Part shown: piece after piece, positions 1,561-23,186 of the stretch
Position numbering within the stretch: the first letter of the stretch is position 1
How the letters are laid out: the number at the start of each line of letters is the position of its first letter
IMG/VR virus record: IMGVR_UViG_3300027974_000165
Coordinates: 1 to 23,186 of that record
Reading direction: 5' to 3' (one strand)
Source: a virus
DNA length: 23,186 nt
Program-made: the position numbers and the translations under genes
The notes under the pieces: generated by a model
The model's input: the letters and a program-made list of their open reading frames with translations, nothing else
Told to the model about the DNA's origin: nothing
Database searches by the model: none

Positions 1561-1965
1561 TACTTTGAGAGTACCGGCTACATTTAAATCACCTTGTATG
1601 CCTACCCCTCCTGCTACTGTTAATGCGCCAGTAAATTCATCAACACTAACTTCTTCAGATAAGACACTTACTGTTACAGGATCCTGTATTTCTAGTAGAT
1701 TTTTAGTTATATGAACTGTTAGTTCATCGTCATTATAAAAGTTGAGTTCTTCTGAGTCAGTGGCATCTATATAAGTAGTGCCAGCATTATTTCTAAATCT
1801 TCCTAATACTATAGCATAGTCTAATTGAGTCCAAGTCTTTACACCGTCGCCTATTTTAAAATTCTTATTGGTTAGATCAATACCAATCTCACCTTGAGCA
1901 AGTTTAGGATTGATTCTGTCCCAGTTTACTAGGGTGTCTCTTCTTAGCTGTATTTTTTTTGCCAT
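1..1965 (-). CDS. Repeat-built tail fibre protein, 3' end outside window
   Basis: The minus frame is open from ATG at 1965 to the window edge (655 codons, no stop). The first ~50 residues (MAKKIQLRRDTLVNWD, then LAQGEIGIDL and FKIGDGVKTWTQL) match the N-terminal domain common on phage fibres and tropism determinants, which is thought to dock the fibre to the virion. The rest is modular beta repeats: runs of TGNVTGN/TGNLTGN, about five copies of a GDVYASNGTTKVLENG-type unit, and four copies of a unit containing TGGSINxTPIGATT. The start is backed by GGAGA 7-8 nt upstream; that site lies in a hairpin (see 1970-2002). A late-type promoter lies at 2016-2026. Fibre identity is fairly sure; the receptor is unknown. 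The plus-strand open frames over this region are repeat shadows. Confidence 0.85.
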   Translation of the reverse strand, partial: MAKKIQLRRDTLVNWDRINPKLAQGEIGIDLTNKNFKIGDGVKTWTQLDYAIVLGRFRNNAGTTYIDATDSEELNFYNDDELTVHITKNLLEIQDPVTVSVLSEEVSVDEFTGALTVAGGVGIQGDLNVAGTLKVAGLDLTGNGGSLNVNITGDVTGNVTGDLRGDVYSTNGIRVLDNGTNGLNALFTGDVTGNITSTGSSNFSSATITGGSINSTPIGATTPSTVKGTTITATTGFSGPLTGNVTGNVTGNVTGNLTGNVTGNLTGNVAGDLTGDVYASNGTTKVLENGNGTSVPATFTGNIIGDIYAADGVTKILENGTDGSNAVFTGTVNTATGVTGRLIGDVYASDGTSKILENGNDGTNAVFTGSVNSNKKSTFNEVAIYSTTGTPGTIDNTEIGKTIPFRITGTTITGTVVTATDKFVGSFEGNSSGNVTGDLKGDIVANNDAKVLDNGTDGTNATFTGSVTGNITSTGSSSFSNVTITGGSINTTPIGATTASTIKGTTITATSGFSGNLTGNVTGNLTGNTTGNLTGNVTGDLTGNVTGNVTGNVTSTGISSFSSIDVTGGSINNTPIGATTASTIKGTGITATTGFSGPLTGNVTGNVTGNLTGNVTGNLTGNVTGNVTSTGTSSFSDIDVTGGKINNTPIGATTP

Positions 1966-1969
1966 TCTT

Positions 1970-2002
1970 GTCTCCAGCGATTTGCTTGGAGACTGACTCC
2001 AA
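1970..2002 (-). promoter_or_regulatory. Alternative hairpins controlling the fibre ribosome-binding site
   Basis: Read on the minus strand, three segments lie between the late-type promoter and the ATG at 1965: A = TTGGAG (2002-1997), B = GTCTCCAA (1993-1986) and C = TGGAGAC (1976-1970), which holds the Shine-Dalgarno GGAGA. B pairs perfectly with C over 7 bp, plus 2 bp beyond a bulge, hiding the ribosome site. B also pairs with A over 6 bp with a 5-nt loop, freeing it. The pairings are exact in the sequence; a regulatory role is inferred. Confidence 0.5.
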
Positions 2003-2015
2003 ACCGCCCATAAAA

Positions 2016-2026
2016 CTATTTATTAA
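2016..2026 (-). promoter_or_regulatory. T4-late-like promoter for fibre gene
   Basis: The minus strand reads TTAATAAATAG, close to the T4 late element TATAAATA. It lies about 50 nt upstream of the fibre ATG at 1965, leaving a roughly 40-nt leader that contains the alternative hairpins. Confidence 0.5.
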
Positions 2027-2050
2027 GAACGGCTTGGTTATTAAATGAGC

Positions 2051-2341
2051 TTAGGCTAATTGAATTCCGCTGGTCTTGCTTAGATATTGCTTGCCAATAT
2101 CATCATCTGTTCGAGCAAAAGTGATAACTGCTGTTCTAGCAATGGCATACTCTTCTTCAGGTCTCACTGTCATCATGTATGGAACCATGCCCATACCCTG
2201 CTGACTCATCATTAACACACTGGGCTTGGTAACATAAAAATTGATACCATCTTCACGTACATAACGCCCAAGAATCTCTTCTCCGCTACTTACTTTGAAA
2301 CTGATAATATCATTGGTTTTAAACTTATTTTCAACTAACAT
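2051..2341 (-). CDS. Small protein of unknown function, possibly Sm-like fold
   Basis: This 96-residue protein starts 2 nt after the glutaredoxin stop, so it is the last gene of the nrdA-nrdB-glutaredoxin operon. Residues 8-40 (FKTNDIISFKVSSGEEILGR, then V-E-D-G) form a beta pattern resembling short Sm/Lsm-like barrels, in which an SGEE turn is followed by a G-x-V strand. A Met/Gly-rich stretch (MMSQQGMGMVPYMM) lies at about 44-57. There is no signal peptide and no clear catalytic motif. The fold idea is weak. Position suggests co-expression with deoxynucleotide synthesis, but no function can be assigned. Confidence 0.75.
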   Translation of the reverse strand: MLVENKFKTNDIISFKVSSGEEILGRYVREDGINFYVTKPSVLMMSQQGMGMVPYMMTVRPEEEYAIARTAVITFARTDDDIGKQYLSKTSGIQLA

Positions 2342-2343
2342 TT

Positions 2344-2586
2344 TTATCCTTTGTATTGTTCGAAAAACTCTGCTGGCTTGCTGTCTAAACCTTGAAACCC
2401 ACCTGGTAATAAGGTCGTACCATCAAAGATCTGTGGCACACTACGCAAACCTTGATCCATTAAGAACTCCTTAGAGTCAGGATCATCTTGTACATTGATT
2501 GCTTTATAAGGAACGCCTTTACTTTCCAATAGAGCTTTAGCTCTGTCACAAAATGGACAGTTATTTTTTGTATATACTGTTAACAT
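2344..2586 (-). CDS. Glutaredoxin
   Basis: This 80-residue thioredoxin-fold protein has the glutaredoxin active site C10-P-F-C13, the cis-proline motif S49-V-P51-Q, and a C-terminal GGFQGLD glutathione-side loop. Length matches compact bacterial and phage glutaredoxins. It would pass electrons, via glutathione or a reductase, to the ribonucleotide reductase encoded just upstream, where the C-terminal cysteine pair of NrdA is the natural acceptor. The start has a strong ribosome site (AAGGAG, 5-6 nt before the ATG) and lies 18 nt after the nrdB stop. CPFC rather than CPYC is a common variant. The family call is confident; the redox partner is inferred from the operon. Confidence 0.93.
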   Translation of the reverse strand: MLTVYTKNNCPFCDRAKALLESKGVPYKAINVQDDPDSKEFLMDQGLRSVPQIFDGTTLLPGGFQGLDSKPAEFFEQYKG

Positions 2587-2604
2587 TACTTCTCCTTTGA
2601 AGGA

Positions 2605-3705
2605 TTATAACATGGGCAATTCATCATAGTCAATACTATCGCCCATAATTCCTATAACATAATTAGTCGACTCGTTTTCCTGCAAAGCAGTCTGCTTTTT
2701 ACTAGTATCACTATGCTTGTTAAACCAAGGAATAGGAGTGGTCTTGGGAGCAGGACTCATATACTTTAAACCAATATCCTTTAAGGCTGCGGCTGCTGTA
2801 TAATCCACAAAGTCTTTTAGAATGTTGGCATTTAATCCAATCACTGGCCCTTTCTTAAACAAATACTCTGCCCATGCCTTTTCCTCTGCAATTACTGACA
2901 AGTACATAGCATATACTTCTTGTTCACAATCCTGCTTGGCCTTGGCAAATCTTGCATCTTCCTTAACTACTTGATTGATTAACCAAGCTGTCCAGCCTTT
3001 ATGTAATAGTTCATCTTGTAGGATTAAACTAATAATATTGCCATTACCAATGAAGATCTTGTTCTCTACCATGGCTAGGCTGGTGGCAAATGACACCATA
3101 AACCTAAATGCTTCTAGGGCATAACTAGCATTGAGCGCCATCCAGATAGATCTAATATGTACAGTTTCATTAATTGATTCACCAAGCTCTTTATGACAAT
3201 TGATCATGTGTAATTCGTCATAGTAATTGCCCACATTACTGGCCATGTCTACTATCTCTTTGGTGTCATGGATAGTATTAAACACATCTTTAGGTACATT
3301 ATAGATATTACGTATGATATGACTATATGATCTACTATGAATATTAGTTTCAAAGAAACTCCAATTATACATCAATGCTTCCATTTCAGGTAAACTTACA
3401 CACGGCGTGAACACTTGTGCTGGGCCACGTCCTTGTATACTATCCAAGGCTGTTTGACGTAATAGATTACTGGTAAAGATATGTTTTACACTGTCACTGG
3501 CATCTTTGAAATCGCTGGCATCTTTGGTCAAACTGATTTCTTCTGGAACCCAAAAGAAACCACGTGCTGTCTGTTCAAAGTCTACAATCTTTTTATATTT
3601 TACTTCTTCAAAACGTTGAATGGTCACTGGTCCGGCTGGATCCAAAAACATTTTGCGATTTAAATAGTCTGTCTTAGTAGTTAGGTTATATTGTTCTTTA
3701 CTCAT
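2605..3705 (-). CDS. nrdB: Class I ribonucleotide reductase, beta (radical) subunit
   Basis: This 366-residue beta subunit makes and holds the radical used by NrdA to reduce ribonucleotides. Aligned by eye with E. coli NrdB, the metal ligands are D88 (in LDSIQGR), E119, H123, E198 (in LEAFRF), E232 and H235 (in DELLH). Y127 in HSRSYSH is the radical tyrosine. D88-E119 and E198-E232 have the E. coli spacing, but E119 to H123 is one residue longer than the usual ExxH (see findings). The tail YVIGIMGDSIDYDELPML should bind NrdA. The start overlaps the nrdA stop by 4 nt (ATGA), so the two are translationally coupled. Identity is very sure; the metal content (Fe, Mn or mixed) cannot be read from sequence. 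Confidence 0.97.
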   Translation of the reverse strand: MSKEQYNLTTKTDYLNRKMFLDPAGPVTIQRFEEVKYKKIVDFEQTARGFFWVPEEISLTKDASDFKDASDSVKHIFTSNLLRQTALDSIQGRGPAQVFTPCVSLPEMEALMYNWSFFETNIHSRSYSHIIRNIYNVPKDVFNTIHDTKEIVDMASNVGNYYDELHMINCHKELGESINETVHIRSIWMALNASYALEAFRFMVSFATSLAMVENKIFIGNGNIISLILQDELLHKGWTAWLINQVVKEDARFAKAKQDCEQEVYAMYLSVIAEEKAWAEYLFKKGPVIGLNANILKDFVDYTAAAALKDIGLKYMSPAPKTTPIPWFNKHSDTSKKQTALQENESTNYVIGIMGDSIDYDELPML

Positions 3706-6032
3706 AATTTACAGGATTCGCAGTCCTCCTCAATTAATTCTCTTTGATTATGAAATCCATTATAATGTACTTCAGGTGTGGGTTCGGGCATTTTACTACC
3801 TTGCTTGTCAATTAAACTATAGTACAGTGTCTTCAATCCCCAAATGTGTGCTTGCATTAGGTTCTTAGCAATTAATGTGCTAGGCACTTTACGATCTGCA
3901 AAATGCTTGGGACTATAGAATGTATTGGTACTGATGCTTTGATCCACATAGGCAGCCAATACTGCTGCTGTTTTCAAATAGCCAACGCAATCTCGTTGTT
4001 CCCACATAAGTTGATAACGATTTTTAAGCCTATGGTACTCTGGAACAACTTGAATGAAACTGCCTGCTTTACTTTCCTTCACACTGATTAGGCTCATGGG
4101 CATTTCAATACCATTAGTACTGTTAATGACCACACTACTGGACTCCACCGGAGCAATAGCCATCAATGTGGCATTGCGTACACCGTACTGTTTCATATTA
4201 GCACGTAAGATTTCCCAATCAAGTTCTGGTGTAAACTCAGCTAATTCATTTACAGCACTGGCTCTGAGTTCCCAAGGAAAAATGCCTTGTCCATATCTTG
4301 TCTTATGACTGTCCTTACATGGGCCACGTTCTTTGGCCAACTCCACAGTGGCTTGAGTTAAGTAGTAGGCTTGATGCTCCATCCAACTTTTAACATCTTG
4401 TAAGGCATCCTTATCACCATACTTATAGCCGCGCTTGGCATGCCAATAGGCCAAGTTAGTTACTCCAATGCCTAATGGTTGGATTTCGTCATTGCTTAGT
4501 TTAGACTGAATACTGAGGAAGTCCTGATAATCAAGGATGTTGCATAGGCTGCGCTGGAGAATGCGACAAGCACGGCGCATATCCTCAGGATTTCTGAACG
4601 CACCCCAGTTAATCGATCCCAAGGTACAAAGAGCGATACGGCCATCGCTGTCATCCAAACGCTTAAAAGGGCGAGTAGGAAGTAGAATTTCACAACAAAG
4701 ATTACTCTGGTAAATTGTATGATAGTCAGGATCAAATGGGCCCTGCTTCATTACGTTGTCAATGAACACCAAATAGATACGTCCTGTATCTGTGCGTTCT
4801 TTTAAGATGCCACTTTTGAATACTTCTTCAGCACTCATAGTTTTTTTACGAATGCCATCTTGACGTTCGTATTTCACATAGAGTTCTTCGAACTTTTCCG
4901 TGTTGGAGTAGAAGGCTTCGTAGAGGTCCGGTACTTGGTTTGGGTCGAAGAACGTAATATTCTCTTTGTTCTTAAACCTACGCCAGAAGAATGCTGAGAG
5001 TACGACACCATAGTCCATATGTCTGACTCGGGTTTCTTCTGTTCCTTGATTATTTTTGAGCACAATAAGGTCATCAAATTGGTGATGCCAGATCGGATAG
5101 AACACAGTAGCTGACGCATTTCTAATCCCTCCTTGTGAACAGGATCTAAGATCCCCAAACCATTTCTTTAAGAACGGAATCATGCCAGTATGCATGATCT
5201 CGCCTCCCCTAATTGGACTACCTAATGGACGCAGTCTGCCAATCTCTAACCCAATTCCAGCACGTTTACTAGCATACTTGGCCATCATTTCGCCACTGGC
5301 GAAAATACTGTCTAAATCGTCATCACTGCGTATGAGAACGCAACTACTAAACTGCTTAGTAGGGGTTCCGAGACCAGCCAATACTGGAGTCGCCAAAGTA
5401 AATAACCCATCACTGGCTGCATTGTAATACTCCTTGATATAACGCATTCTGGCAGCTAACGGTTCTTCCTTATGAAAGATAGTGGCTGCTGCTATAATAT
5501 AGCGAACTTGTGGTGTTTCATAAATTTCTTTTGTGCTACGATTACGTACTAGATACTTTTCAATTAATTGTTCAATGGCAGCATAACTGTATTCTTCATC
5601 ACGTTCATGTCGAACAAACAAATCAATATTATTCCAATCTGATTCAGTATACCATGTTAGTAGTTCAGGAGTATATAGTCCTACTTCCACATTGCGTTTA
5701 ACTATGTCATAGAGCCTAGGAACATCATATTGACCGTAGACATCTTTACGTAGCATACTGAGACGTTGTTTGCCTGCCACATATTGATAGTTAGTATTGC
5801 CAACATCTGGATTACTTTCAATATCAATCAAATCAACGATAGCACGTAGGGTAATCCCATCAATTTCCTTAGTGGTAATGCCATCGTAGAAGTGTGGCTG
5901 TGCTTTGATCTCTATCATGCTTTGGCTCACATCTGCAATACCACTGCATACTTTAGCTATCTGTGTCTGCCATTTGGAAAGGTCTAGTGGTACGCTATCC
6001 CCGTTTCTTTTTTTCACCGTGATTTTATTCAT
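3702..6032 (-). CDS. nrdA: Class I ribonucleotide reductase, alpha (catalytic) subunit
   Basis: This 776-residue subunit reduces ribonucleoside diphosphates to deoxy forms for phage DNA synthesis. Residues ~1-95 look like an N-terminal ATP-cone (ITVKKRNGDSVPLDLSKW onward), suggesting allosteric activity control. Catalytic residues match E. coli NrdA: redox pair C231 (FSSCVLI) and C469 (IALCTLGSIN), N444-C446-E448 in SNLCCEI, and radical-transfer pair Y737-Y738 (LKTLYYSL). The C-terminal shuttle cysteines are C771 and C774 in EDCESCKL. C447, beside the thiyl cysteine, is an extra cysteine where E. coli has Leu. A sigma70-like promoter lies immediately upstream (6039-6067). All expected landmarks are present and the gene appears intact. 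Confidence 0.97.
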   Translation of the reverse strand: MNKITVKKRNGDSVPLDLSKWQTQIAKVCSGIADVSQSMIEIKAQPHFYDGITTKEIDGITLRAIVDLIDIESNPDVGNTNYQYVAGKQRLSMLRKDVYGQYDVPRLYDIVKRNVEVGLYTPELLTWYTESDWNNIDLFVRHERDEEYSYAAIEQLIEKYLVRNRSTKEIYETPQVRYIIAAATIFHKEEPLAARMRYIKEYYNAASDGLFTLATPVLAGLGTPTKQFSSCVLIRSDDDLDSIFASGEMMAKYASKRAGIGLEIGRLRPLGSPIRGGEIMHTGMIPFLKKWFGDLRSCSQGGIRNASATVFYPIWHHQFDDLIVLKNNQGTEETRVRHMDYGVVLSAFFWRRFKNKENITFFDPNQVPDLYEAFYSNTEKFEELYVKYERQDGIRKKTMSAEEVFKSGILKERTDTGRIYLVFIDNVMKQGPFDPDYHTIYQSNLCCEILLPTRPFKRLDDSDGRIALCTLGSINWGAFRNPEDMRRACRILQRSLCNILDYQDFLSIQSKLSNDEIQPLGIGVTNLAYWHAKRGYKYGDKDALQDVKSWMEHQAYYLTQATVELAKERGPCKDSHKTRYGQGIFPWELRASAVNELAEFTPELDWEILRANMKQYGVRNATLMAIAPVESSSVVINSTNGIEMPMSLISVKESKAGSFIQVVPEYHRLKNRYQLMWEQRDCVGYLKTAAVLAAYVDQSISTNTFYSPKHFADRKVPSTLIAKNLMQAHIWGLKTLYYSLIDKQGSKMPEPTPEVHYNGFHNQRELIEEDCESCKL

Positions 6033-14022: not shown

Positions 14023-14412
14023 TTAAGAAACGCCGTATAGGCTTGTTAGTTGTGTTACTGTAACAGTGGATGTTGTACCAGAACCTGTTAGTGTACCAGC
14101 ACCGCCTAGAGCCTTGTCTGCTCTAACTGCTACGATGTCAACGTCTAGGGCATGTCCGTCACCAACAAAAATCATTGATGTACCGTCACTCTTTACTTGG
14201 AAAAGAGCACCAGTTGTACCAAACTCTTGTGCTAGGCTGGTTGCTTTACTGTATAAACCATCACTGTATGTGCCTGGAGCAGTGTGATCACTCTGTCCTG
14301 TATCAACATCAGTAATTGTGCTATATGCAATCTTAAATACTTTTAGCTGTAATGTGCTGTATAATGTACCCTTGGCGATATACGCTGGGTTGGCTTTAAA
14401 AACTTGTGGCAT
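14023..14412 (-). CDS. Small probable virion protein, unknown
   Basis: This 129-residue protein is rich in Thr, Ser, Ala, Gly and Val, with a beta pattern throughout (TLYSTLQLKVFKIAYSTITD, ALFQVKSDGTSMIFVGDG) and a Gly/Thr-rich end (GGAGTLTGSGTTSTVTVTQL). It is low in charge and Cys-free, like phage decoration or coat-type proteins. It is unusually well equipped for expression: a GAGGAG ribosome site, a stem-loop in the leader (14433-14453) and a strong terminator after it. That suggests high output, but the decoration role is inference and no family was recognised. Confidence 0.72.
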   Translation of the reverse strand: MPQVFKANPAYIAKGTLYSTLQLKVFKIAYSTITDVDTGQSDHTAPGTYSDGLYSKATSLAQEFGTTGALFQVKSDGTSMIFVGDGHALDVDIVAVRADKALGGAGTLTGSGTTSTVTVTQLTSLYGVS

Positions 14413-14432
14413 AATATTCTCCTCGTTGCCTT

Positions 14433-14453
14433 AACCCGTTAACTCTACGGGTT
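14433..14453 (-). other. Leader stem-loop before the 129-residue gene
   Basis: On the minus strand AACCCGT pairs with ACGGGTT (7 bp, 7-nt loop), upstream of the GAGGAG ribosome site without covering it. There is no T run, so it is not a terminator. It could protect the mRNA 5' end or keep the ribosome site open. Confidence 0.55.
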
Positions 14454-14460
14454 GTGTAAA

Positions 14461-14471
14461 AGTATTTACCA
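14461..14471 (-). promoter_or_regulatory. Weak T4-late-like promoter
   Basis: The minus strand reads TGGTAAATACT, sharing TAAATA with the other candidates but lacking the full ATAAATA. It lies about 50 nt before the ATG at 14412. Confidence 0.3.
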
Positions 14472-14477
14472 AATTTT

Positions 14478-14502
14478 AAAAAATTGGGCAACTTACACCC
14501 AA
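14478..14502 (-). terminator. Possible weak terminator
   Basis: On the minus strand TTGGG and CCCAA (5 bp plus a T-G wobble) enclose a short loop and are followed by six T. It lies just after the stop of the 89-residue minus-strand gene. The short stem keeps confidence low. Confidence 0.4.
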
Positions 14503-14508
14503 ATTTGG

Positions 14509-14778
14509 TTAGATTGAACCTTTACTATTTTTACGACTTTCGTGTACTTTGTTCATGCCACGTTTGAATTTGTCGCCATCACTGGTGCGTATGGCATTGA
14601 TAAACCTACGCTCTAACTCACCAGCAGTCTCTACGTCATAATGTTCTTTGATTAACTTCAGTAAGTTAGAAGCACTGGCAATTAAGTTTGCACCTTTAGT
14701 TTCAATAAGGTGGTCTTTATTACGGATCAAACTGATCTCGTTTAGCTCTTCAAGAATACTTCTAGTGCTTTTTTTCAT
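14509..14778 (-). CDS. Small helical protein, unknown function
   Basis: This 89-residue basic protein is helical throughout: STRSILEELNEISLIRNKDH, then ANLIASASNLLKLIKEHYDV, ELERRFINAIRTSDGDKF and a Lys/Arg/Ser-rich tail. There is no membrane span and no Cys. It has the best late-type promoter of the window (TATAAATA at 14796-14803) at a short distance, so it is likely made late, perhaps as a DNA-associated or head component. It lies at the divergent border with the plus-strand island. No family was recognised. Confidence 0.72.
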   Translation of the reverse strand: MKKSTRSILEELNEISLIRNKDHLIETKGANLIASASNLLKLIKEHYDVETAGELERRFINAIRTSDGDKFKRGMNKVHESRKNSKGSI

Positions 14779-14795
14779 AGCCGTTCCTGTCCAAC

Positions 14796-14803
14796 TATTT
14801 ATA
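14796..14803 (-). promoter_or_regulatory. Perfect T4-type late promoter element
   Basis: The minus strand reads TATAAATA, identical to the T4 late consensus, followed after 15 nt by the ATG at 14778 with AGGA between. This is the strongest anchor for reading the other TAAATA motifs as late promoters. Confidence 0.65.
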
Positions 14804-14863
14804 GTGACTGAACGAAGTCATTTAATAAGCTGATTATGGTTGGAAGTATCTTGACTGAAAAGC

Positions 14864-14892
14864 TTGACAATTGCTGCTTTGCAGCATAAAAT
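14864..14892 (+). promoter_or_regulatory. Sigma70 promoter with inverted repeat in its spacer
   Basis: TTGACA (14864-14869), a 17-nt spacer, then TAAAAT (14887-14892). The spacer contains a perfect inverted repeat, TGCTGC-TTT-GCAGCA (14872-14886), where a bound repressor would block polymerase. It should drive the plus-strand island, with transcription starting near 14899. Confidence 0.7.
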
Positions 14893-14948
14893 AGACTAAA
14901 TACTCAGTAGAAACCATGAGTATCTACTTAACCAAAAGGAAACACAAA

Positions 14949-15113
14949 ATGTTTATTTTTACAGTATTTGACAAACTAGTTGATTTATTAGATCGTTTTA
15001 GCAGTCATCAAACAGATTTGGAGCGATTTATTACTGCCCACAATCCACAACACGGCGGTGATGTTGACAATCTCATTCGTCAATACACCTATGGTCGCAA
15101 GGGTGTATTATGA
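14949..15113 (+). CDS. Small protein of unknown function (first gene of plus island)
   Basis: This 54-residue protein reads MFIFTVFDKLVDLLDRF, then DLERFITAHNPQHGGDVDNL and IRQYTYGRKG. An in-frame ATG at 14916 would add 11 residues, but the AAAAGGAAA ribosome site sits properly before 14949. The pattern of an aromatic N-terminal helix, then L-x-x-F-I-x-x-x-N-P and a closing I-R-x-Y helix, resembles short host-encoded bacterial proteins that bundle this motif, but no named family can be given with confidence. Its stop overlaps the next start (ATGA). Confidence 0.65.
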   Translation: MFIFTVFDKLVDLLDRFSSHQTDLERFITAHNPQHGGDVDNLIRQYTYGRKGVL

Positions 15114-15205
15114 AATATCTACATAAATTTTATGATTATCTAATAGCTTGGAATGAAGCTGTTTACCAATATCGTAAACATAATAAAATTAATTCTTACT
15201 ACTGA
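15110..15205 (+). CDS. 31-residue aromatic mini-protein
   Basis: ATG at 15110 overlaps the previous stop by 4 nt (ATGA). The product reads MKYLHKFYDYLIAWNEAVYQ, then YRKHNKINSYY. It is rich in Tyr and Lys and predicted as one amphipathic helix. It resembles small proteobacterial proteins with a W-x-E-A-x-x-x-Y-R-K-H pattern. Coupling and a coherent composition favour a real gene, but its size leaves doubt. No function is known. Confidence 0.5.
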   Translation: MKYLHKFYDYLIAWNEAVYQYRKHNKINSYY

Positions 15206-15265
15206 AATGTGGCCAGTAATAGACAAAGAAAGATTTAAATAAACATATACTTTAAAGGTAAGATT

Positions 15266-15679
15266 ATGTCTACTAAATTTTCTCATTCCAAAGCCTCCGA
15301 AGCAGAATTCAAAAGCGGGGGGTTACGCGACTTTTTTCTATATAGGGACTTAGGCGTAGCAGATGCCACACACGGCAAGGTAGTTGCACATATAACCAAG
15401 GCCAATAAGCAGCCCGAACAAGGCACAGGATGGCATACTCATGTGGCAGACTTTCAAATAGTCTATATGCTCAAAGGCTGGGCCAAGTTTATGTACGAAG
15501 ATAAAGAAACGCTGGTACAAGCAGGTGATTGTATTCATCAACGTCCAGGTATTGTACACTATTTGTTTGACTATAGCGAGGATATGGAGTATTTGGAAAT
15601 TGTTGGTCCGGCCAACTTTGGCAGTGTTGATGCTGAAGCCCCTTGTGCAGTGCCGCCAGTGACCCCCTGGAGCCAGTAA
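15266..15679 (+). CDS. Cupin-domain protein
   Basis: This 137-residue single-domain cupin has motif 1 as GTGWHTHVADFQIVYMLKGW, with metal-ligand candidates H57, H59 and Q64 (Gln where most cupins have Glu), and motif 2 as GDCIHQRPGIVHYLF with H98. Small cupins of this type may bind a metal and act as isomerases, dioxygenases or sensors; the substrate here is unknown. AAAGG lies 7-8 nt before the ATG. Its stop overlaps the start of the hydrolase gene (TAATG), so the pair is translationally coupled. It looks host-derived rather than a standard phage part. Confidence 0.88.
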   Translation: MSTKFSHSKASEAEFKSGGLRDFFLYRDLGVADATHGKVVAHITKANKQPEQGTGWHTHVADFQIVYMLKGWAKFMYEDKETLVQAGDCIHQRPGIVHYLFDYSEDMEYLEIVGPANFGSVDAEAPCAVPPVTPWSQ

Positions 15680-16254
15680 TGAACATAGTATACATACACG
15701 GTGCTAGTGCTACCAGTGACAGCTTTAACTATATTCGAAGTAAAGTAGGTAAAGGCATAGACATTAACTACGACAGTCGCAAAGGATTTGAAAATAATCT
15801 AGGCGATATGTTAGATAAGTTAGCCACAGTGAACGATATATTCTTTGTGGCACATAGCCTAGGCGGTATTTACAGTCTACATCTTGCCAATACTATTCCT
15901 AAACGAGTACTTGGCGCCGTTACATTAAGTGCTCCATATGGTGGTGCAGAAGTTGCTGACGTATTAACTTTCTTCATGCCATTCAGTAGACTCATGCGTG
16001 ACATTGGTCCTAGTAGTTGGGTTATGCAACAGGCTGATCGTATTAAAATTCAACATCCATGGACCAATGTGGTCACTATGAAAGGGCAGAGTCCTTTTAT
16101 TCCTGAAGACAATGATGGTGTAGTTACAATCAGCAGCATGAAACATCATATTGATATGGAGTTGATTGAAGTAGAGTTTAACCACTATGAAGTAGTATTG
16201 AGCGACGAGGTTATAAAAATTATTAAGGAACGGATAGATAAGGTAAAGAAATAA
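15679..16254 (+). CDS. Alpha/beta hydrolase (lipase/esterase-like)
   Basis: This 191-residue hydrolase is read from ATG 15679, which overlaps the cupin stop (TAATG) and has GGAG in front; a longer frame from 15643 lacks such support. Landmarks are VYIHGASATSDSF (oxyanion HG), nucleophile S60 in VAHSLGGIYS, an acid in EDNDGVVTISS, and a late His in FNHYEVVLS. The order Ser-Asp-His and the small size fit lipase/PGAP1-like alpha/beta hydrolases without a lid. There is no signal peptide, so it should be cytoplasmic. The substrate is unknown. Pairing with a cupin suggests a small metabolic or defence cassette carried by the phage. Confidence 0.88.
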   Translation: MNIVYIHGASATSDSFNYIRSKVGKGIDINYDSRKGFENNLGDMLDKLATVNDIFFVAHSLGGIYSLHLANTIPKRVLGAVTLSAPYGGAEVADVLTFFMPFSRLMRDIGPSSWVMQQADRIKIQHPWTNVVTMKGQSPFIPEDNDGVVTISSMKHHIDMELIEVEFNHYEVVLSDEVIKIIKERIDKVKK

Positions 16255-16255
16255 G

Positions 16256-16284
16256 TTGCTCTTGTCCATTCTACCCTGTATAAT
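16256..16284 (+). promoter_or_regulatory. Sigma70 promoter of the 89-residue gene, overlapping a late-type motif
   Basis: TTGCTC (16256-16261), 17-nt spacer, TATAAT (16279-16284). TATAATAAATAC also contains AATAAATA, so a late-type element overlaps the -10 box. Transcription would begin near 16291, the first base of the stem-loop. Confidence 0.7.
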
Positions 16285-16290
16285 AAATAC

Positions 16291-16314
16291 ATAAGCAGCA
16301 GGGTTGTTGCTTAT
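16291..16314 (+). other. 5'-terminal mRNA stem-loop
   Basis: ATAAGCAGCA pairs with TGTTGCTTAT (10 bp, one G-U pair) around a GGGT loop. It sits at the predicted +1 of the transcript, as in stabilising 5' hairpins, and leaves the AGGAG ribosome site free. Confidence 0.65.
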
Positions 16315-16339
16315 ACAGACATACACATAGGAGATTATT

Positions 16340-16609
16340 ATGTCAGACTTTACCCCAAAACTTCCAGACGTGAAGTTCAACAAGAACGGATATGAAATCC
16401 GCACAGACATCCTCGATATGGCCAAGAGCCTTATGATGGAGGAATACCACGCTAAATTCCACGGTTGGGAAATCTCGGCACAGCGTGATGAAAAATCAGG
16501 ACAGGTTATTACCACAGTTGGTATGCCACAGTTTCCTGGACTTGAGCAAGTGCTATCTACAGCAGAAAAAATGTACGGCTTTGTTAATCAAGGCACCAAG
16601 TCACGTTAA
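16340..16609 (+). CDS. Small conserved-type phage protein, probably highly expressed
   Basis: This 89-residue protein reads NGYEIRTDILDMAKSLMMEE, then YHAKFHGWEIS, VITTVGMPQFPGLEQVLSTA and EKMYGFVN. It has a helix-strand-helix look, with no membrane span and no Cys. I have the impression of similar small proteins in T4-like marine phages but cannot name a family. Its own unit is striking: sigma70 promoter, 5' stem-loop, AGGAG ribosome site 7 nt before the ATG, and a strong terminator. That predicts abundant, early or constitutive expression. The role is unknown; a DNA-binding or host take-over protein is possible but speculative. Confidence 0.8.
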   Translation: MSDFTPKLPDVKFNKNGYEIRTDILDMAKSLMMEEYHAKFHGWEISAQRDEKSGQVITTVGMPQFPGLEQVLSTAEKMYGFVNQGTKSR

Positions 16610-16626
16610 TCATTAGTGCCTAGCAC

Positions 16627-16652
16627 AATAGGGCCTTAGGGCCCTATTTTTA
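16627..16652 (+). terminator. Rho-independent terminator between convergent genes
   Basis: AATAGGGCC and GGCCCTATT form a 9-bp stem around TTAG, followed by T-rich sequence on the plus strand. On the minus strand no T run follows, so it chiefly ends the plus transcript, just before the end of hemF. Confidence 0.88.
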
Positions 16653-17552
16653 TATCCAATCCTTAGGCTTTAAATAACGTTCGTACAATGTAGCTTCTGG
16701 AGAGTTGACTTCTGGTCTATAGTCATAACTCCAAGTAACATTAGGTGGCATACTCATTAAGATACTTTCTGTACGGCCACCGCTTTGTAGTCCAAACAAT
16801 GTGCCACGATCCCATACTAGGTTAAACTCTACGTATCTACCACGGCGATATGCTTGCCATGCTCTTTGTTCTGGCCCGTACGCCGAGTCACGTCTACGTT
16901 GTGCAATGGGCAACCAAGCTGATAAAAAGTTATCACCCACTGCTCTTGTTAAGGCAAATGCTGTGTCAAAGTCTGGTGTGTCTAAGTCATCAAAGAATAT
17001 GCCGCCTATGCCTCTAGGTTCATTGCGATGTTTGAGATAAAAATATTCATCACAGGCTTTTTTATAGTTGGCATAGACATCCTCACCGTATGGATGCAGT
17101 GCATCACGACAAGTACGATGAAAGTGTTCAGCATCATCATCAAAGCCATAGTAAGGTGTTAGGTCCATACCGCCACCAAACCACCACGTTGCTGGTTCAT
17201 TGCTTGTGGCCTGTGCCACAAAGAAGCGCACATTTAAATGTACTGTTGGTACATATGGGTTGAGTGGATGAAACACTAGACTCATTCCCATTGCTTCCCA
17301 CTTTCTGCCTATTAGGTGTGGGCGTGCTGCTGTGGCTGATGGTGGTAGTTGATTACCTGTGACATGACTAAATCCAACCCCACCACGCTCGAGTAGCTGA
17401 CCTCCTTCAAGTATGCAGGTTATACCTTCGCCAGTAGGTTTATTCCATTCATCATGTTTGAATTTGGCGGACTCTTCATTCATTTCTAACATATAAACTA
17501 TGTTTTCTTGTAATCCAAGTAGCCAGCTTTTTACTGCTTTTGAGTCAACCAT
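16650..17552 (-). CDS. hemF: Oxygen-dependent coproporphyrinogen III oxidase
   Basis: This 300-residue protein is full length for the family (E. coli 299). HemF oxidatively decarboxylates two propionates of coproporphyrinogen III to give protoporphyrinogen IX, a cytoplasmic haem-synthesis step that needs O2. Family blocks are intact: [52 protein letters not shown] and [20 protein letters not shown]. The four His discussed for E. coli HemF (96, 106, 145, 175) have counterparts at H95, H105, H145 and H175. The ATG lies inside the last codons of the peptidase gene (8-nt overlap, shared AAGAATGGTTGA) with AGGAAGGA in front, so it is translationally coupled to a virion-lysin gene. No other haem gene is in the window. 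This is unexpected in a phage and presumably an auxiliary metabolic gene. Confidence 0.96.
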
Positions 17553-18918
17553 TCTTATTCCTTCCTCTACGCATATTGGCTTGCCAATGTGCTAGTTGTT
17601 TCTTACGTGGGCTAGCATTGCTATGAGTGATCTTATCTAATGAGCTCAAACTGGCCTTTTTAGGTATACCGTGTCTAGCACTGTCCCCTTTGTCCTCAGG
17701 GTGCTTTCCATCTGCAAAGTTCTCAGCTATTGGGTTAGTTGGGTAACCAGAAACATGTTTTTCCCAATGTAGATGTGGGCCTGTCGAAGTGCCAGAATTG
17801 CCTGATAGTCCTACTACTTGCCCTTGAGTTACACGACTACCTGCTCGTACCATAACTTTAGACAAATGGAAGAACTTATGTACTTCACCATTGTCTCCTA
17901 TGACTGTAACATAATTACCTTGGCTTCCTCGAGTGTACCCCGATCCCTTAACTGAACCAGACACTGGTGATTTTACTGGAGTGCCTATTGGTACACCAAA
18001 GTCTACTCCATTATGCTGACCTCTAGCCCTTCTTCCAAATGCACTAGTAATTGGGCCATTAACTGGTTTAGTTGAACTTGATGATCCCATAGACCTAGTT
18101 CTAGGCTGAGATTGATTGGATACTGGTCTTTGATTAGGTGTGCCATTTTTATTAACTATCTGATCACGGGGGCCTTTCATACTAGTTACAGCATCAATAG
18201 CACTCTGTGTATATGGTCCAATTTTTCCATCAACGCCAGTTGGACCCAAATTGTAACCCATTTTTTGTAATACTGTTTGAATTCCCCTAATTGCTGTAGG
18301 TGATTTATTAACTATATCAAAGAACCCCTCATCCAGCCTATCCAAATAGTTTTTCATTTTGAATAAACCATCTTGATCTAGGTCATCCAAATATCTATGT
18401 CCAGCAACACGTCTAGTTAGTTTTAAGAAGGCTGGTTCATCATCCCACTTAATACCTTTCTTATCTGCTATTTTATGTATACTCTTTGGTGTTAGTTTTT
18501 TCTTTTGGCTCTCTGCCAATATAGTAGCATGTTGGAATAGCTCAGGATTCATCTTAGCCCATAGACGCATGACCACAGCGGCTTTGGCATTGGCTTCGTT
18601 TTCTTCGTCACTGCCATCCTTACCACTATCTGGCTTTAGTTCACCATTAATGTCCTGTTTGTAGTGAACCATTTCATGTGCTAGAGTACGTAGCACATCC
18701 ATAATATGTCTATTACCAATGTTGATCTCTATGCCTGCTCCTGGCATATATCCACCAAAGCTACGACGTTGACTGGCCAACTTGGGATTCCTGTGTAATA
18801 CAATTTTAGGTGGTTCCTGTAATCCTAACTTTTGACTGGCAAACTTCACAAAGGCCTTGATGATAGGTTCACTACCATCATCAGGTCTAGGCTTTTCAGT
18901 CAATTCTAAAAATTTCAT
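17545..18918 (-). CDS. Three-domain wall hydrolase: zincin, peptidoglycan-binding, M23 peptidase
   Basis: This 457-residue protein has, at ~1-125, a metallopeptidase-like domain with H81-E82-M-V-H85 ([16 protein letters not shown]) and a possible third ligand E108 in ENEANA. At ~207-245 it has a PG_binding_1 motif ([33 protein letters not shown]). At ~285-395 it has an M23 endopeptidase with H302-N-G-V-D306, H351, and H382-L-H384 in TGPHLHWE. The C-terminus (~400-457) is a basic module containing [17 protein letters not shown] and [16 protein letters not shown]23 enzymes cut peptide cross-links in peptidoglycan, so this is probably a virion or late lytic enzyme. No signal peptide. Its start overlaps the Cys-rich gene (ATGA) and its end overlaps hemF. 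Two peptidase-type sites in one chain is unusual. Confidence 0.9.
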
Positions 18919-19121
18919 ATAAAGTTCTTATTTGATAATTGTTGTATTTGATCAGGATGTGTGCCTTCCATACGGGCTACACAATTAGGACATTCACAAG
19001 TATTACATTCACATTCTTTACACTTTGGTTTGTTGCAGTGATGTGCATGACCGCATAGTCTACAAGGTGTGAATAAGGTTTCAGTATCATCATTATCCAG
19101 TAGATCTAAAAAATTAAACAT
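18915..19121 (-). CDS. Cys-rich zinc-binding-type mini-protein
   Basis: This 68-residue protein has nine Cys and three His packed in residues 20-47: C20-x2-C23-GHAHH-C29, then C34-x2-C37-x-C39-x2-C42-x-C44-x2-C47. The pattern suggests two small zinc knuckles or a metal cluster. The N-terminus (FNFLDLLDNDDTETLF) is acidic; the C-terminus is plain. The stop overlaps the next gene (ATGA), so it is coupled to the wall hydrolase, perhaps as its partner or as a small virion or regulatory protein. No named family was recognised. Confidence 0.78.
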   Translation of the reverse strand: MFNFLDLLDNDDTETLFTPCRLCGHAHHCNKPKCKECECNTCECPNCVARMEGTHPDQIQQLSNKNFI

Positions 19122-19141
19122 GTTAGTTCCTTGTACAAGTA

Positions 19142-19152
19142 ATTATTTACTT
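19142..19152 (-). promoter_or_regulatory. T4-late-like promoter
   Basis: The minus strand reads AAGTAAATAAT, immediately after the stop (TAA) of the collagen-like gene and 20-30 nt before the ATG at 19121. It could drive the Cys-rich, hydrolase and hemF genes. Confidence 0.4.
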
Positions 19153-22100
19153 AGCTCCAAGTACCGTTGGCTGAATCAGCTCCAATTGGTCCTATGGGTA
19201 ATAATTTAACGTAAGCGCCAGCTAGAACGCTCCATGTTATAGGAGTGTTTTGATCTTGGCTGATCATAAAGTTTAGTGAACCGCCTGTGGTCACATCAAT
19301 AGTACCCCAAATTGCATAATGTGCAAAGGCATTGTTAGTATCTGCCACTGCCTGTGCTGTGGTAAACAATGAAGTTAAGTTCTTACTCATCATGGTAATA
19401 CCAGCTGTATATCCATCAACCGTAGTTGTCTTGTTGCCAATCACTGTGTAGTTGTGTTGTGCTAGTACCAGGCCGCCATTTGCAGCCAATGCATAACTTA
19501 GCACACCTGCTTTATTGGCTTGTAAATTAAACACTATCTCATACTGATAACGTGTGTTAGAAATTACGGTTACTCCATTAGTCAATCCAAATGGACTGAG
19601 CAGTGTATTTTTAGCACTGGTCAATGTATATGCAGTATCTTGAACATAGATCAGTATGTTAGAGTTTAAGTTTCCGTATGTTGATCCAATTCCTTGTATA
19701 CCTTGTACACCTTGGGCAGCTTGTGTTCCTTGAATACCTTGACTGGCCTGCATACCTTGTATGCCCTGTATACCTTGATTACCGGTTGATCCATAAGTAC
19801 CTTGAGTACCTTGAATGCCTTGGCGTCCTTGTATACCTTGTGTACCCTGTGTTCCTTGAGCACCGTCTGTACCTTGTGTTCCCTGTATACCTTGTATGCC
19901 CTGAGTGCCCTGTGTACCTTGACGTCCTTGGATGCCTTGATTACCCAGTATACCTTGTGTACCTTGTGTACCTTGTAGGCCAGTATCACCAGTTGCTCCA
20001 TAAGTACCTTGTGTACCCTGTATACCTTGCGTACCTTGATTGCCTTGTGTACCTTGTGTACCCTGTGTACCTTGGATGCCCTGTTGACCTTGTGTACCTT
20101 GTGTACCCTGTATGCCTTGGCGCCCTTGTATACCCTGTTGACCTTGATTACCTTGATTACCTTGTATACCTTGATTACCTTGTATACCTTGATTACCTTG
20201 TGTACCTTGTGTACCTTGTGTACCTTGTGTACCTTGTATACCTTGTACGCCTTGTGTACCCTGTGTACCTTGGATGCCCTGTTGACCTTGTGTACCTTGT
20301 GTACCCTGTACACCCTGTACACCCTGTAAGCCCTGTACACCTTGTATACCTTGATTACCTTGTGTACCTTGTGTACCTTGTACGCCTTGGACACCTTGAA
20401 CGCCTTGTACGCCTTGTAGACCTTGGCGTCCTTGTACACCTTGTACGCCTTGTACACCTTGTACACCTTGAATACCTTGTACACCTTGAGGACCAAGTAT
20501 ATCTCCTACGTCATTCCACTGTGATCCGTCCCAAAAGTATAAGCTACCATCAACTATATTAAGATATCCATCACCTATATCGCCAGTATAAGCATTAGGG
20601 TATCCAGGCAAATCGGTAATAACACTAACCGATCCCAATATTCTTACACTAGTCCCGTCTAGACCTTTAATACCTTGGGCACCGTATGTACCTTGTATAC
20701 CTTGTGTACCTTGATTACCCTGTGTACCTTGTGTACCTTGATTACCCTGTGTACCTTGTGTACCTTGATTACCCTGTGTACCTTGTGTACCTTGTATGCC
20801 CTGTGTACCTTGTATGCCCTGCGTACCCTGCGTACCTTGTGTACCCTGCGTACCTTGTGTACCCTGCGTACCTTGTGATCCAGCATTACCTTGTGTGCCT
20901 TGTATACCTTGTGTACCTTGATTACCTTGTGTACCTTGATTACCCTGTGTACCTTGTGTACCTTGTATGCCCTGTGTACCTTGTATGCCCTGCGTACCCT
21001 GCGTACCTTGTGTACCCTGCGTACCTTGTGTACCCTGCGTACCTTGTGTACCCTGCGTACCTTGTGATCCAGCATTACCTTGTGTTCCTTGGGCTGCCTG
21101 TGTGCCTTGTATACCTTGTGTACCTTGAGAACCTGTTTGACCAATGTTCCCAGTTGCTCCATAAGTACCTTGTGTACCATTTTGTCCTTGTACACCTTGC
21201 GTACCCTGTGTACCTTGATTGCCTGTTATACCTTGAGCACCTTGTTCACCTGTTGTGCCTTGTAGACCTAATGTACCTTGAGTACCTTGACGTCCTTGTA
21301 TACCTTGATTACCTGTTATACCTTGACTGCCAAAAGTGCCTTGAAATCCAGTAGTCCCTTGGAATCCTTGTATACCTTGAAATCCGTCCGTACCCTGTAT
21401 ACCTTGTATGCCCTGGCGACCTTGGCGGCCTTGTGTACCCTGTGTACCTTGTACGCCTTGTGATCCACGTATGTCGCCTACATCATTCCATTGTGCGCCA
21501 TCCCAAAAGTACAGACTGCCATCGACTATGTTAAGGTATCCATCACCAATATCACCAAGATAACTTGTAGGATAACCAGGTAGTTCAGTTATGTCACTGA
21601 CTGAACCTAATATTCTTACACTGGTTCCGTCAACACCCTTGACACCTTGCAGTCCTATATCGCCTTGTACACCCTGTAGACCCTGTATGACTTCGGGCTT
21701 GTTCTTGATATAATCTAATTTGGTGTTGTCAGTTTGATCCCAATCACTTTGAATGGCTGCTGTAATTTGTCTAGTGTTATCTCTAAATGTTATGCCAGAT
21801 TCTGTGTCTACTGCACCAACGAAAGATAATCCTGTACTATCAACCGTGGCCGACTTTTGAATAGTTGCAGAACCAACAGGAGCATTTTGAAACACAAACT
21901 TAGTACCTGCTGTAGTATCAGTAAAGTTTTCAGCAGCCACAGTATCAAGTCTACTAATACCATTCACATAGCCAGTAGTTCCCCAACCCACAGCTGAAAA
22001 ACGTGACAGCACATCACCCTCAACCATAGCACTAGGTTCATCCACTGTGCCACGTGCGGCTCTGCCTGCATACAATGGATAAGTGCCTACACCAAAGCTA

Positions 22101-23186
22101 TCTGAACTTATGCGCGAACTCTTACCATCTTGAGCTGTTAATTGAATTAATGTGCCATCATATAGTGTGACACGTGGTTGCGTATGACCATTATTAGTAC
22201 CAACAATACTTAATGTGGATTTGGTTGGGTCCGAACTAACTGGACTATATATGGCTGTTAGCCCCTCTCTATTAACATCAAATACTGTTCTACCTAAATT
22301 GTTTCTTATTCTAATTGGTCGATTAAAATCCACATAGCCTGTGGCATCTGTTGAACCAACTATGATGTCACGCTCAGGATCAGTAATCTTAATTTGATTG
22401 TCCACCAATGTGAACTCACCTACACTAAGGCCTGCACCATTCTGAACATATAACAAATTGTCCCTAGCACCAATGGCAATATCCTTACCCAAGGTTTCGT
22501 CAAATATAAAGATAGTGCCCGGACCTAAATAGATACTTTTCCAACGTTTGGTCGGTGTACCAAGAGTACTAATGTTATTGGTCACTGGTACTATATTGGT
22601 GTTAACAATAACATCGCCTAGTCCACGACTATCTAAAAATATATCACTATTGTTGGCACTTTGAACGTTAAAGTTAGCTTTGGTTAATGGACGTAATAGA
22701 TCAAACTTGGCACCAGTTAATGGCAATACCTGTCCCAATGAAGATAGATCCAATCCCACAATAACATAATTACTCCACTCGGCAGGATCACCTTCTCCAG
22801 CTAATCCTCGATCCCGTACCACACTGGGCACAATGCCTACACCAGTTAATATGTCATTAATTTGAATAGCACTGATAGGAATGCCACTAGTTCCTGGCGC
22901 TAATTCGAATACGGTCCATGGTGCAACAACTCCATTTATGTTTCCATAAGTGCCAGTTAATAAATTGTCGCTTGGGCCAGTGCTGCTATCCACTATACTG
23001 GCTAATTCATACTGCGTGATATATGCTTCAATATAGAGATTGCTGTTTAAGATATTACCATTGTCGCCTACTTTAAGACTGGGCACTTGTACACTGCCAC
23101 TGCCATTAGGATTGAGTATGATATCAGTATCAGGCACCGTACCTGATAATGTCTGCAAATCTTCACCATTGATTACAAAATTGCCT
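19151..23186 (-). CDS. Collagen-like tail fibre protein, 5' end outside window
   Basis: 1344 residues are visible. The frame is open through the right edge (GNFVINGED precedes a TTG at 23158 that is unlikely to be the start). Order in the protein: ~500 residues of beta-rich virion-type sequence ([14 protein letters not shown]-like elements); a short Gly-X-Y stretch; module 1 ([16 protein letters not shown] to QWNDVGDI); a long Gly-X-Gln collagen tract; module 2, a close copy of module 1; a second collagen tract; and a ~175-residue C-terminal domain (from [15 protein letters not shown] to ADSANGTWS) likely to trimerise or bind receptor. The collagen triplets are mainly GTQ, GIQ, GVQ and GNQ, with almost no proline. 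The plus-strand open frames here are shadows of the repeats. Confidence 0.88.
19685..20490 (-). repeat. Collagen-repeat tract 2 (9-nt units)
   Basis: Tandem 9-nt units (plus-strand form ccttgtgta with variants) encode Gly-X-Gln triplets; X is T, I, V, N, R, Q or L. It lies between module 2 and the C-terminal domain. Irregular units ([13 protein letters not shown]) interrupt it. Confidence 0.88.
20494..21640 (-). repeat. Duplicated ~58-residue fibre module (20494-20671 and 21466-21640)
   Basis: Two copies encode VRILGSVS-x-IT-x-LPGYP, [20 protein letters not shown] and QWNDVGDI, each set between collagen tracts. Protein is nearly identical while the DNA differs at many third positions, so this duplication is older than the one in the collagen tract, and the protein is under selection. 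Confidence 0.8.
20665..21465 (-). repeat. Collagen-repeat tract 1 with internal duplication of ~189 nt
   Basis: The same type of 9-nt units. The block ending in gatccagcattacc occurs at about 20690-20890 and again at about 20895-21079; the landmark recurs 189 nt apart (20877 and 21066), which is exactly 21 triplets. The copies are nearly identical, differing mainly by one 18-nt unit, which implies recent tandem duplication. Confidence 0.82.

Follow-up and report, generated by a model that had tools for sequence, protein, structure and literature searches.

The stretch of DNA analysed here (the window, a virus record of 23,186 nucleotides taken at full length) probably comes from a large phage that steps up the synthesis of haem (tetrapyrrole) in its host, in which an oxygen-dependent coproporphyrinogen III oxidase (HemF) would help to carry a flux boosted by 5-aminolevulinate synthase (ALAS) onward to haem. 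What was seen directly is the genes, how far they are conserved, where they come from, the selection on them and their co-presence in the same phage records.

The hemF gene of the window is intact-looking, and its product is a predicted coproporphyrinogen oxidase. The protein matches PF01218 nearly from end to end (residues 7-299 on profile positions 2-295 of 295, E 8e-125), and this full-length match is accompanied by a score of 428.9 bits against the curated equivalog NF003727 of NCBIfam (oxygen-dependent coproporphyrinogen oxidase), the cut-off of which is 297. Among PDB entries its best match by sequence, at E 3e-120, is an oxygen-dependent coproporphyrinogen-III oxidase (8t7w). In the alignment, H96, H106, H145 and H175 of E. 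coli HemF, which we take to be the important histidines, correspond to H95, H105, H145 and H175 of the window protein, and all four are invariant across five rows (the window, E. coli, two sequences of a second phage clade described below and the bacterial sequence L031); R109, D130, D248 and R249 are likewise retained in the window protein. A full-length gene with the HemF blocks and four key histidines, as originally predicted, is therefore borne out by both profiles and by the alignment. The window protein resembles bacterial HemF (E. coli b2436, to which it is 61% identical; PDB 8t7w) in being a full-length homologue with the catalytic residues kept, but differs in being encoded by a phage, among phage genes.

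The same gene occurs at the same site in five records representing four genotypes (the window, G001, G002, G003 and G004; the window type). In all five, the end of the upstream gene overlaps the start of hemF by 8 nt (17545-17552) and a Shine-Dalgarno-like stretch is present, so the earlier observation that the hemF ATG lies inside the end of an M23 gene holds for every window-type record. The upstream gene (ORF 17545-18918) matches Peptidase_M23 with an E value of 1.1e-24, and its peptidoglycan-binding match is weak, below the Pfam cut-off. Promoter-like sites numbered 11 in 14400-19800, against 15.6 expected by chance, and terminator-like sites six in the region, against 3.6 expected; the window has a single copy of TATAAATA, the late-promoter word of T4-type phages, where 2.4 would be expected, and that copy is not close to hemF. 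ORFs resembling the small Cys-rich ORF upstream of the M23 gene were recognised by reading in G010, L292 and L303. The features of the hemF region are listed in the table.

Table. Features in and around hemF in the window
Feature	Position	Strand	Basis or remark
hemF, oxygen-dependent coproporphyrinogen III oxidase, 300 aa, full length	16650..17552	-	PF01218, NF003727, residue alignment
457-aa protein: N-terminal HExxH region, weak peptidoglycan-binding match, C-terminal M23 peptidase	17545..18918	-	Pfam; 8-nt overlap with hemF
Shine-Dalgarno-like stretch AGAGGAAG-A, ahead of the hemF ATG, within the M23 gene end	17560..17570	-	In all five window-type records; putative function
Terminator-like palindrome, between convergent ORF 16340-16609(+) and hemF(-)	16627..16648	.	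Consensus match only
89-aa ORF, one border of the variable cargo slot	16340..16609	+	Matched in 20/80 ALAS-bearing phage loci (best 80 of 363)
68-aa Cys-rich ORF upstream of the M23 gene, 4-nt overlap	18915..19121	-	No Pfam match

Other genes were noticed in the window. A collagen-like protein with long tandem repeats of the QGTQGTQG type is encoded at 19151-23158(-), its complete ORF in G001 being 1433 aa long; nrdA and nrdB, for a class Ia ribonucleotide reductase, lie together with a glutaredoxin gene at 2344-6032(-); and a cupin gene followed by an alpha/beta-hydrolase gene, neither with a homologue listed in G010, G009 or G013, occupies 15266-16254(+), on the strand opposite to most window genes.

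The window is 99.99% identical over its full length to positions 10316-33501 of the 110-kb record G001, and the two are thus one genotype, assembled twice. The HemF proteins of G002, G003 and G004 are 98%, 97% and 96% identical to that of the window, and lie in records whose collinear DNA blocks are 79-92% identical to it (matches to internal repeats excluded). In five window-type pairs, dN/dS was 0.043-0.113 with dS up to 0.46, and on these substitution ratios the window-type gene is under purifying selection. A phage-host chimera, or bacterial DNA misfiled as viral, would have parallels in the same collections, where locus L006 holds a host gene beside a prophage and 'Acinetobacter phage MD-2021a' has a bacterial neighbourhood. 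For the window type, however, four genotypes share an identical M23-gene junction and the same gene order on both sides, the neighbours are collinear with a 400-kb phage contig, and identity to bacterial HemFs does not exceed 70% among the matches listed. Recurrence at the same site in four genotypes together with purifying selection makes a chimera very unlikely; that explanation is largely refuted, and contamination of the window type was rejected on recurrence, shared junctions and collinearity. The gene has the marks of an auxiliary metabolic gene, being found in the phage contigs of several genotypes, each time at the same junctions, with a bacterial origin in the tree and selection that retains it. 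The four genotypes, the tree, the dN/dS ratios and the shared junctions likewise agree with the earlier view that hemF was not a recent random capture.

The distribution of phage HemF was surveyed by a profile scan of the viral_contigs collection through two peptide patterns, which gives a lower bound for the number of HemF phages. At least 14 loci were found, comprising four of the window type (L002-L005), seven of a second clade (L010-L016) and three that were judged to be host DNA (L006, L008 and L009). HemF of the second clade is 49-56% identical to that of the window, with dN/dS of 0.08-0.19 and dS up to 1.5 in five pairs, and its gene lies in a nucleotide-cyclase/replication module without an overlapping upstream gene. 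Locus L006, with the order purD-hemF-tRNA-Ala-integrase, was read as a host gene next to a prophage; there, hemF, tRNA-Ala and integrase stand in a row after a purD-like gene at 630-3110 (purD and integrase by reading), apparently because a prophage integrated at the tRNA adjoining the host hemF. L008 and L009 have prophage-type genes alongside, by reading only, and were set aside as host DNA. In the isolate-phage collection three records match HemF, none convincingly: two belong to a record set with a bacterial gene neighbourhood (Acinetobacter phage MD-2021a, treated as host DNA), and the third, OR845489, is a 2.3-kb fragment that spans 34% of the query and was likewise set aside. Long ordinary bacterial stretches (recG, dxs, hemF, glyQ/S) in the Acinetobacter phage MD-2021a records (L007, CAKLQH020000003.1) surface in phage haem-gene searches. 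No PHROGs family matches HemF.

The window type and the second clade have a genomic background in common. A replication-type module beside a class III nucleotide-cyclase gene (PF00211) is present in both G001 and the contigs of the second clade, and G001 12-45 kb, which includes most of the window, has a collinear counterpart at 355-399 kb in the 400-kb contig G010 (27/41 ORFs matched); over the whole of G001, 67 of the 121 ORFs have homologues in G010, G009 or G013. A Gp23-type capsid gene was found in four of the 15 records searched, all of the second clade, and not in G001, which is incomplete. Members of this large-phage group keep the adenylate/guanylate cyclase-like gene (G001 67367-68593, locus L020; L013 7022-8254; PF00211 E 1.6e-8) next to genes of replication type, and it was found at 29 loci in viral_contigs. 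At five of these 29 loci hemF lies within 6 kb of it, and 18 cyclase-bearing relatives searched, many of them fragments, yielded neither HemF (0/18) nor ALAS (0/18).

Trees were built after bacterial rows with more than 60% common 4-mers had been thinned, giving 102 rows for a quick tree, and 63 rows were hand-picked for a careful one; L016 (cut), L042 (3 residues), L014, L009 and L002 (duplicates) and L217 (same genome as L032) were omitted. In the 63-row tree the window type groups at 100/98 support with L031, a MAG sequence from Betaproteobacteria bacterium WB4_2_1101; four further bacterial sequences complete the starred set around them (98/97), and the second clade forms a separate long branch. 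The HemF phylogeny that had been proposed as a check thus returned a bacterial-type origin. Both trees separate the two clades, and a joint clade is not rejected (p-AU 0.063 in the 63-row careful tree and 0.218 in the 102-row quick tree); with HemF at two genome sites, there were possibly two captures. The best bacterial HemFs among the 80 matches listed are 61-70% identical to the window protein and titled mostly Betaproteobacteria, which, by sequence, are its nearest cellular kin. Betaproteobacteria make haem by the C5 pathway, and on this and the HemF tree the host would be a C5-pathway betaproteobacterium. The presumed host order is that of MAG L032, which we infer to be Burkholderiales; 355 of the 399 genomes sampled from it have a HemF match, so the phage gene would duplicate the host's own.

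The first step of haem synthesis is encoded close by. In G001, the twin of the window, an ALAS gene (34336-35535(+); TIGR01821, 574.9 bits against a cut-off of 338.55) begins 835 bp past the right end of the window, the window record itself being without one. ALAS was found in five of the 33 records searched (G001, G002, G004, G010 and G011), all of which carry HemF; it lies 5-6.5 kb from hemF in three of the five window-type records (G001, G002 and G004) and about 38 kb from it in G011, which, like G010, belongs to the second clade. Among the 12 HemF-bearing phage records, five thus have ALAS and in seven none was seen: the window and G003 stop before its place, G008 (8 kb) and G014 (21 kb) are short, and G009, G012 and G013 lack the whole counterpart of the ALAS region, with 1-2 of 41 G001 ORFs matched. 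Compared with R. capsulatus ALAS (2bwn), the G001 protein keeps the PLP lysine and has Arg at the position of His342, a haem-feedback residue according to PMC11480375; the alignment does not reach Cys400. A ferritin/Dps-like gene (PF00210; L018 15536-15973, corresponding to G001 35536-35973) is convergent with that for ALAS, possibly for iron storage beside haem synthesis. The viral_contigs collection holds 363 ALAS-related stretches, which may include other same-fold enzymes, and the best 80, with 73-99% identity, were taken as ALAS. Two of these best 80 loci have HemF, both of the window type; none of the 43 other ALAS-bearing records of at least 20 kb (among 77 of the best 80, outside G002, G004 and G010) does, so ALAS needs no phage HemF. 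Ferrochelatase (HemH) was found in one of 50 records searched, the window-type G002, where the gene is cut at the contig end; G010 lies outside those 50.

A simple scheme would join these genes. ALAS would open a second, less regulated entry into the haem pathway and, acting by itself, would push up the levels of porphyrin intermediates. According to Wegner et al. (2024; PMC11480375), complementing E. coli with a phage AlaS leads to porphyrin build-up in the medium and to light sensitivity; HemF and HemH could relieve this overflow. HemF would convert coproporphyrinogen III to protoporphyrinogen IX with O2, at a step where overflow can collect, and HemH, where present, would close the pathway, so that the two turn overflow into haem; the extra haem would keep respiration going during infection. 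Since HemF requires O2, the scheme would work in oxic cells only. Enzyme activity, flux, host and benefit are what we infer here, and the other haem genes in the same records tie hemF to a haem function. A boost of haem supply, one of the effects that the original prediction had put forward, is the simplest reading, and the nearby ALAS gene strengthens it.

Ten E. coli K-12 haem proteins (GluTR, HemL, B, C, D, E, F, G, H and N) were compared by tblastn with 168 phage sequences (3.0 Mb, with overlaps), and beyond HemF the search returned HemB, HemC, HemE and HemH in G010 and the cut HemH in G002; a repeat with phage queries and five more contigs had the same outcome. G010 accordingly encodes ALAS, HemB, HemC, HemE, HemF and HemH, all above their equivalog cut-offs (in bits, HemB 446.8 against 297, HemC 339.1 against 164, HemE 434.8 against 303 and HemH 308.2 against 124.6). 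The hemC and hemE genes overlap by 4 nt and are flanked by ORFs with homologues in a 353-kb ALAS phage contig, G804 (43% and 39%); hemB lies near four paralogues common to G011 and G001; and of the two neighbours of hemH just one is shared (60%), in a region (280-300 kb) with eight of 22 ORFs matched in the other contigs compared, against 258/396 overall. The GC content of the hem genes is within 0.05 of that of their flanks, and HemC is at most 57% identical to those of 49 of the 50 genomes sampled from the presumed host order, the 50th being without a match. A chimeric origin of G010 is unlikely. HemB, HemC and HemE rest on this single record, and HemH is present in the window group as a cut gene. 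Near hemC-hemE, genes for ClpP (L260 8444-9037), an ATP-dependent DNA ligase-like protein (L260 6328-7641) and a YccA-like membrane protein (L260 5385-6083) were noticed, and the ends of G010 do not overlap.

The pathway in G010 appears incomplete. HemD gave only short matches below its cut-off of 27.5 bits (19 bits over 35 residues in G010 and 14.9 bits in G004); HemG, HemN, GluTR and HemL had no tblastn match in the phage contigs and loci; and a rough screen by motif and hydrophobicity recognised no HemJ-like ORF in G010. Scans of viral_contigs for HemE, HemH and HemB, each with six exact 8-residue words that miss distant relatives (and missed the cut HemH of G002), returned only G010 itself. 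We consider it an evenly balanced question whether a clade of large phages has built a Shemin-type haem pathway piecewise, starting from the widespread ALAS, followed by HemF at two sites, ferrochelatase and, in G010, HemB, HemC and HemE, such that an infected C5-pathway bacterium would make haem largely on phage enzymes, with only the host's HemD and protoporphyrinogen oxidase needed.

At the window site, hemF sits in a slot (window 16610-17552) between the 89-aa ORF and the HExxH/M23 gene, the counterparts of which were compared in G010, L292, L303, L306, L325, L330 and L357. The slot is empty in L325, L330 and L357, where the border genes are 76-98 bp apart; in G010 it holds a 209-aa ORF and a fatty-acid desaturase gene (PF00487; L266 556-1257, that is, G010 380556-381257); in L303 a 209-aa ORF lies beside the HExxH gene, the 89-aa ORF not being matched; and in L292, whose ALAS is 95% identical, another gene lies beside a shorter HExxH gene. 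The N-terminal part of the M23-gene protein is found in relatives with a shorter counterpart gene, after which no hemF follows. Linkage to a lysis or peptidase gene is thus found in all five window-type records and not in the second clade or the slot relatives. The lysin coupling stressed by the original prediction holds for the window type and fails as a general arrangement; likewise the proposed search of viral metagenomes for hemF beside M23 genes found the window-type loci, and second-clade hemF elsewhere. Given the second-clade site and the variable slot, the link to the M23 gene is a local arrangement and not a rule, and the suggestion that hemF acts late in infection is not established.

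This variability could also mean that hemF is a low-benefit passenger. The cargo between the two border genes differs among relatives (nothing, a 209-aa ORF with a desaturase, a 209-aa ORF, or another gene), and hemF is rare, both in the other ALAS-bearing records (0/43) and near the cyclase gene (within 6 kb at 5/29 loci). Yet dN/dS is well below 1 at dS values of up to 0.46 in the window type and 1.5 in the second clade, hemF recurs in two clades at two sites, and further haem genes are present in the same records, which makes a passenger unlikely. The 8-nt overlap and the strand shared with the M23 gene in all five window-type records would also suit an enzyme that drains coproporphyrinogen to protoporphyrin(ogen) late in infection, as substrate removal or as a photosensitiser aiding killing or lysis, with the overlap setting the timing. 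ALAS would feed such a porphyrin build-up, and light sensitivity is described in PMC11480375. However, hemF of the second clade adjoins the cyclase/replication module and not an M23 gene, the ferrochelatase of G002 (cut) and G010 would consume protoporphyrin, and relatives keep the shorter M23-gene counterpart without hemF; we hold this explanation to be improbable. Instead of respiration, phage haem might feed a reaction that consumes it, for example a haem oxygenase/bilin route, given that hemO and pcyA/X accompany ALAS in some phages (PMC11480375). A tblastn search of the phage contigs and loci with the bilin reductase PebS of P-SSM2 gave no match at E 0.01, a weak argument against this use, which we regard as decidedly unlikely. 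Haem augmentation through HemF is the reading that we prefer.

Several phage systems bear on this reading. The valaS phages of Wegner et al. (2024; PMC11480375) resemble those described here in being aquatic phages with ALAS, with the same proposed aim of keeping tetrapyrrole synthesis running, and in that His342 is missing in many of their enzymes, as in that of G001. They differ, by description and not by sequence comparison, in the partners of ALAS, which are hemO and pcyA/X there and HemF (with HemH) here, on a route onward to haem; neither HemF nor coproporphyrinogen occurs in the main text of that paper. The pelagimyophage PMP-MAVG-4 is also metagenomic, and one sentence in PMC7029224 gives it a 'coprophyrinogen oxidase, porphobilinogen deaminase' (the latter HemC-type); it is a putative SAR11 phage for which HemF or HemN is left unstated, without analysis, and it was compared by description only. 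The original view that hemF is not a standard phage gene accordingly agrees with PHROGs and the isolate phages, and is tempered by this pelagimyophage. Pelagiphage ferrochelatases (PMC9599517 and PMC11561400) share phage-encoded HemH with the present group, but are paired with 2OG-Fe(II) oxygenases, and the word 'coproporphyrinogen' does not occur in either paper. A coproporphyrinogen oxidase has been claimed for plant-rhizosphere RNA viruses (PMC12806420), and the haem words searched do not occur in three papers on large or jumbo phages (PMC7674155, PMC13037316 and PMC12619734). A literature search, with most subscription journals and preprints outside its scope, found neither a phage HemF with ALAS nor a phage with most of the haem pathway.

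In summary, phage ALAS, phage ferrochelatase and a one-sentence pelagimyophage coproporphyrinogen oxidase are already in print, and what appears to be new here, as predicted from the genes, is HemF beside ALAS and a relative with six haem genes. The addition of HemF and ferrochelatase, and the presence of six haem enzymes in one phage, would point to haem itself, and not ALA or bilins, as the target. If true, phage takeover of host metabolism, known for single bottleneck enzymes, would extend to the greater part of a pathway for an essential cofactor. Phage ALAS activity and porphyrin overflow in E. coli have already been shown (PMC11480375), and the question of whether phages rebuild host haem synthesis becomes directly testable with few genes in that organism.
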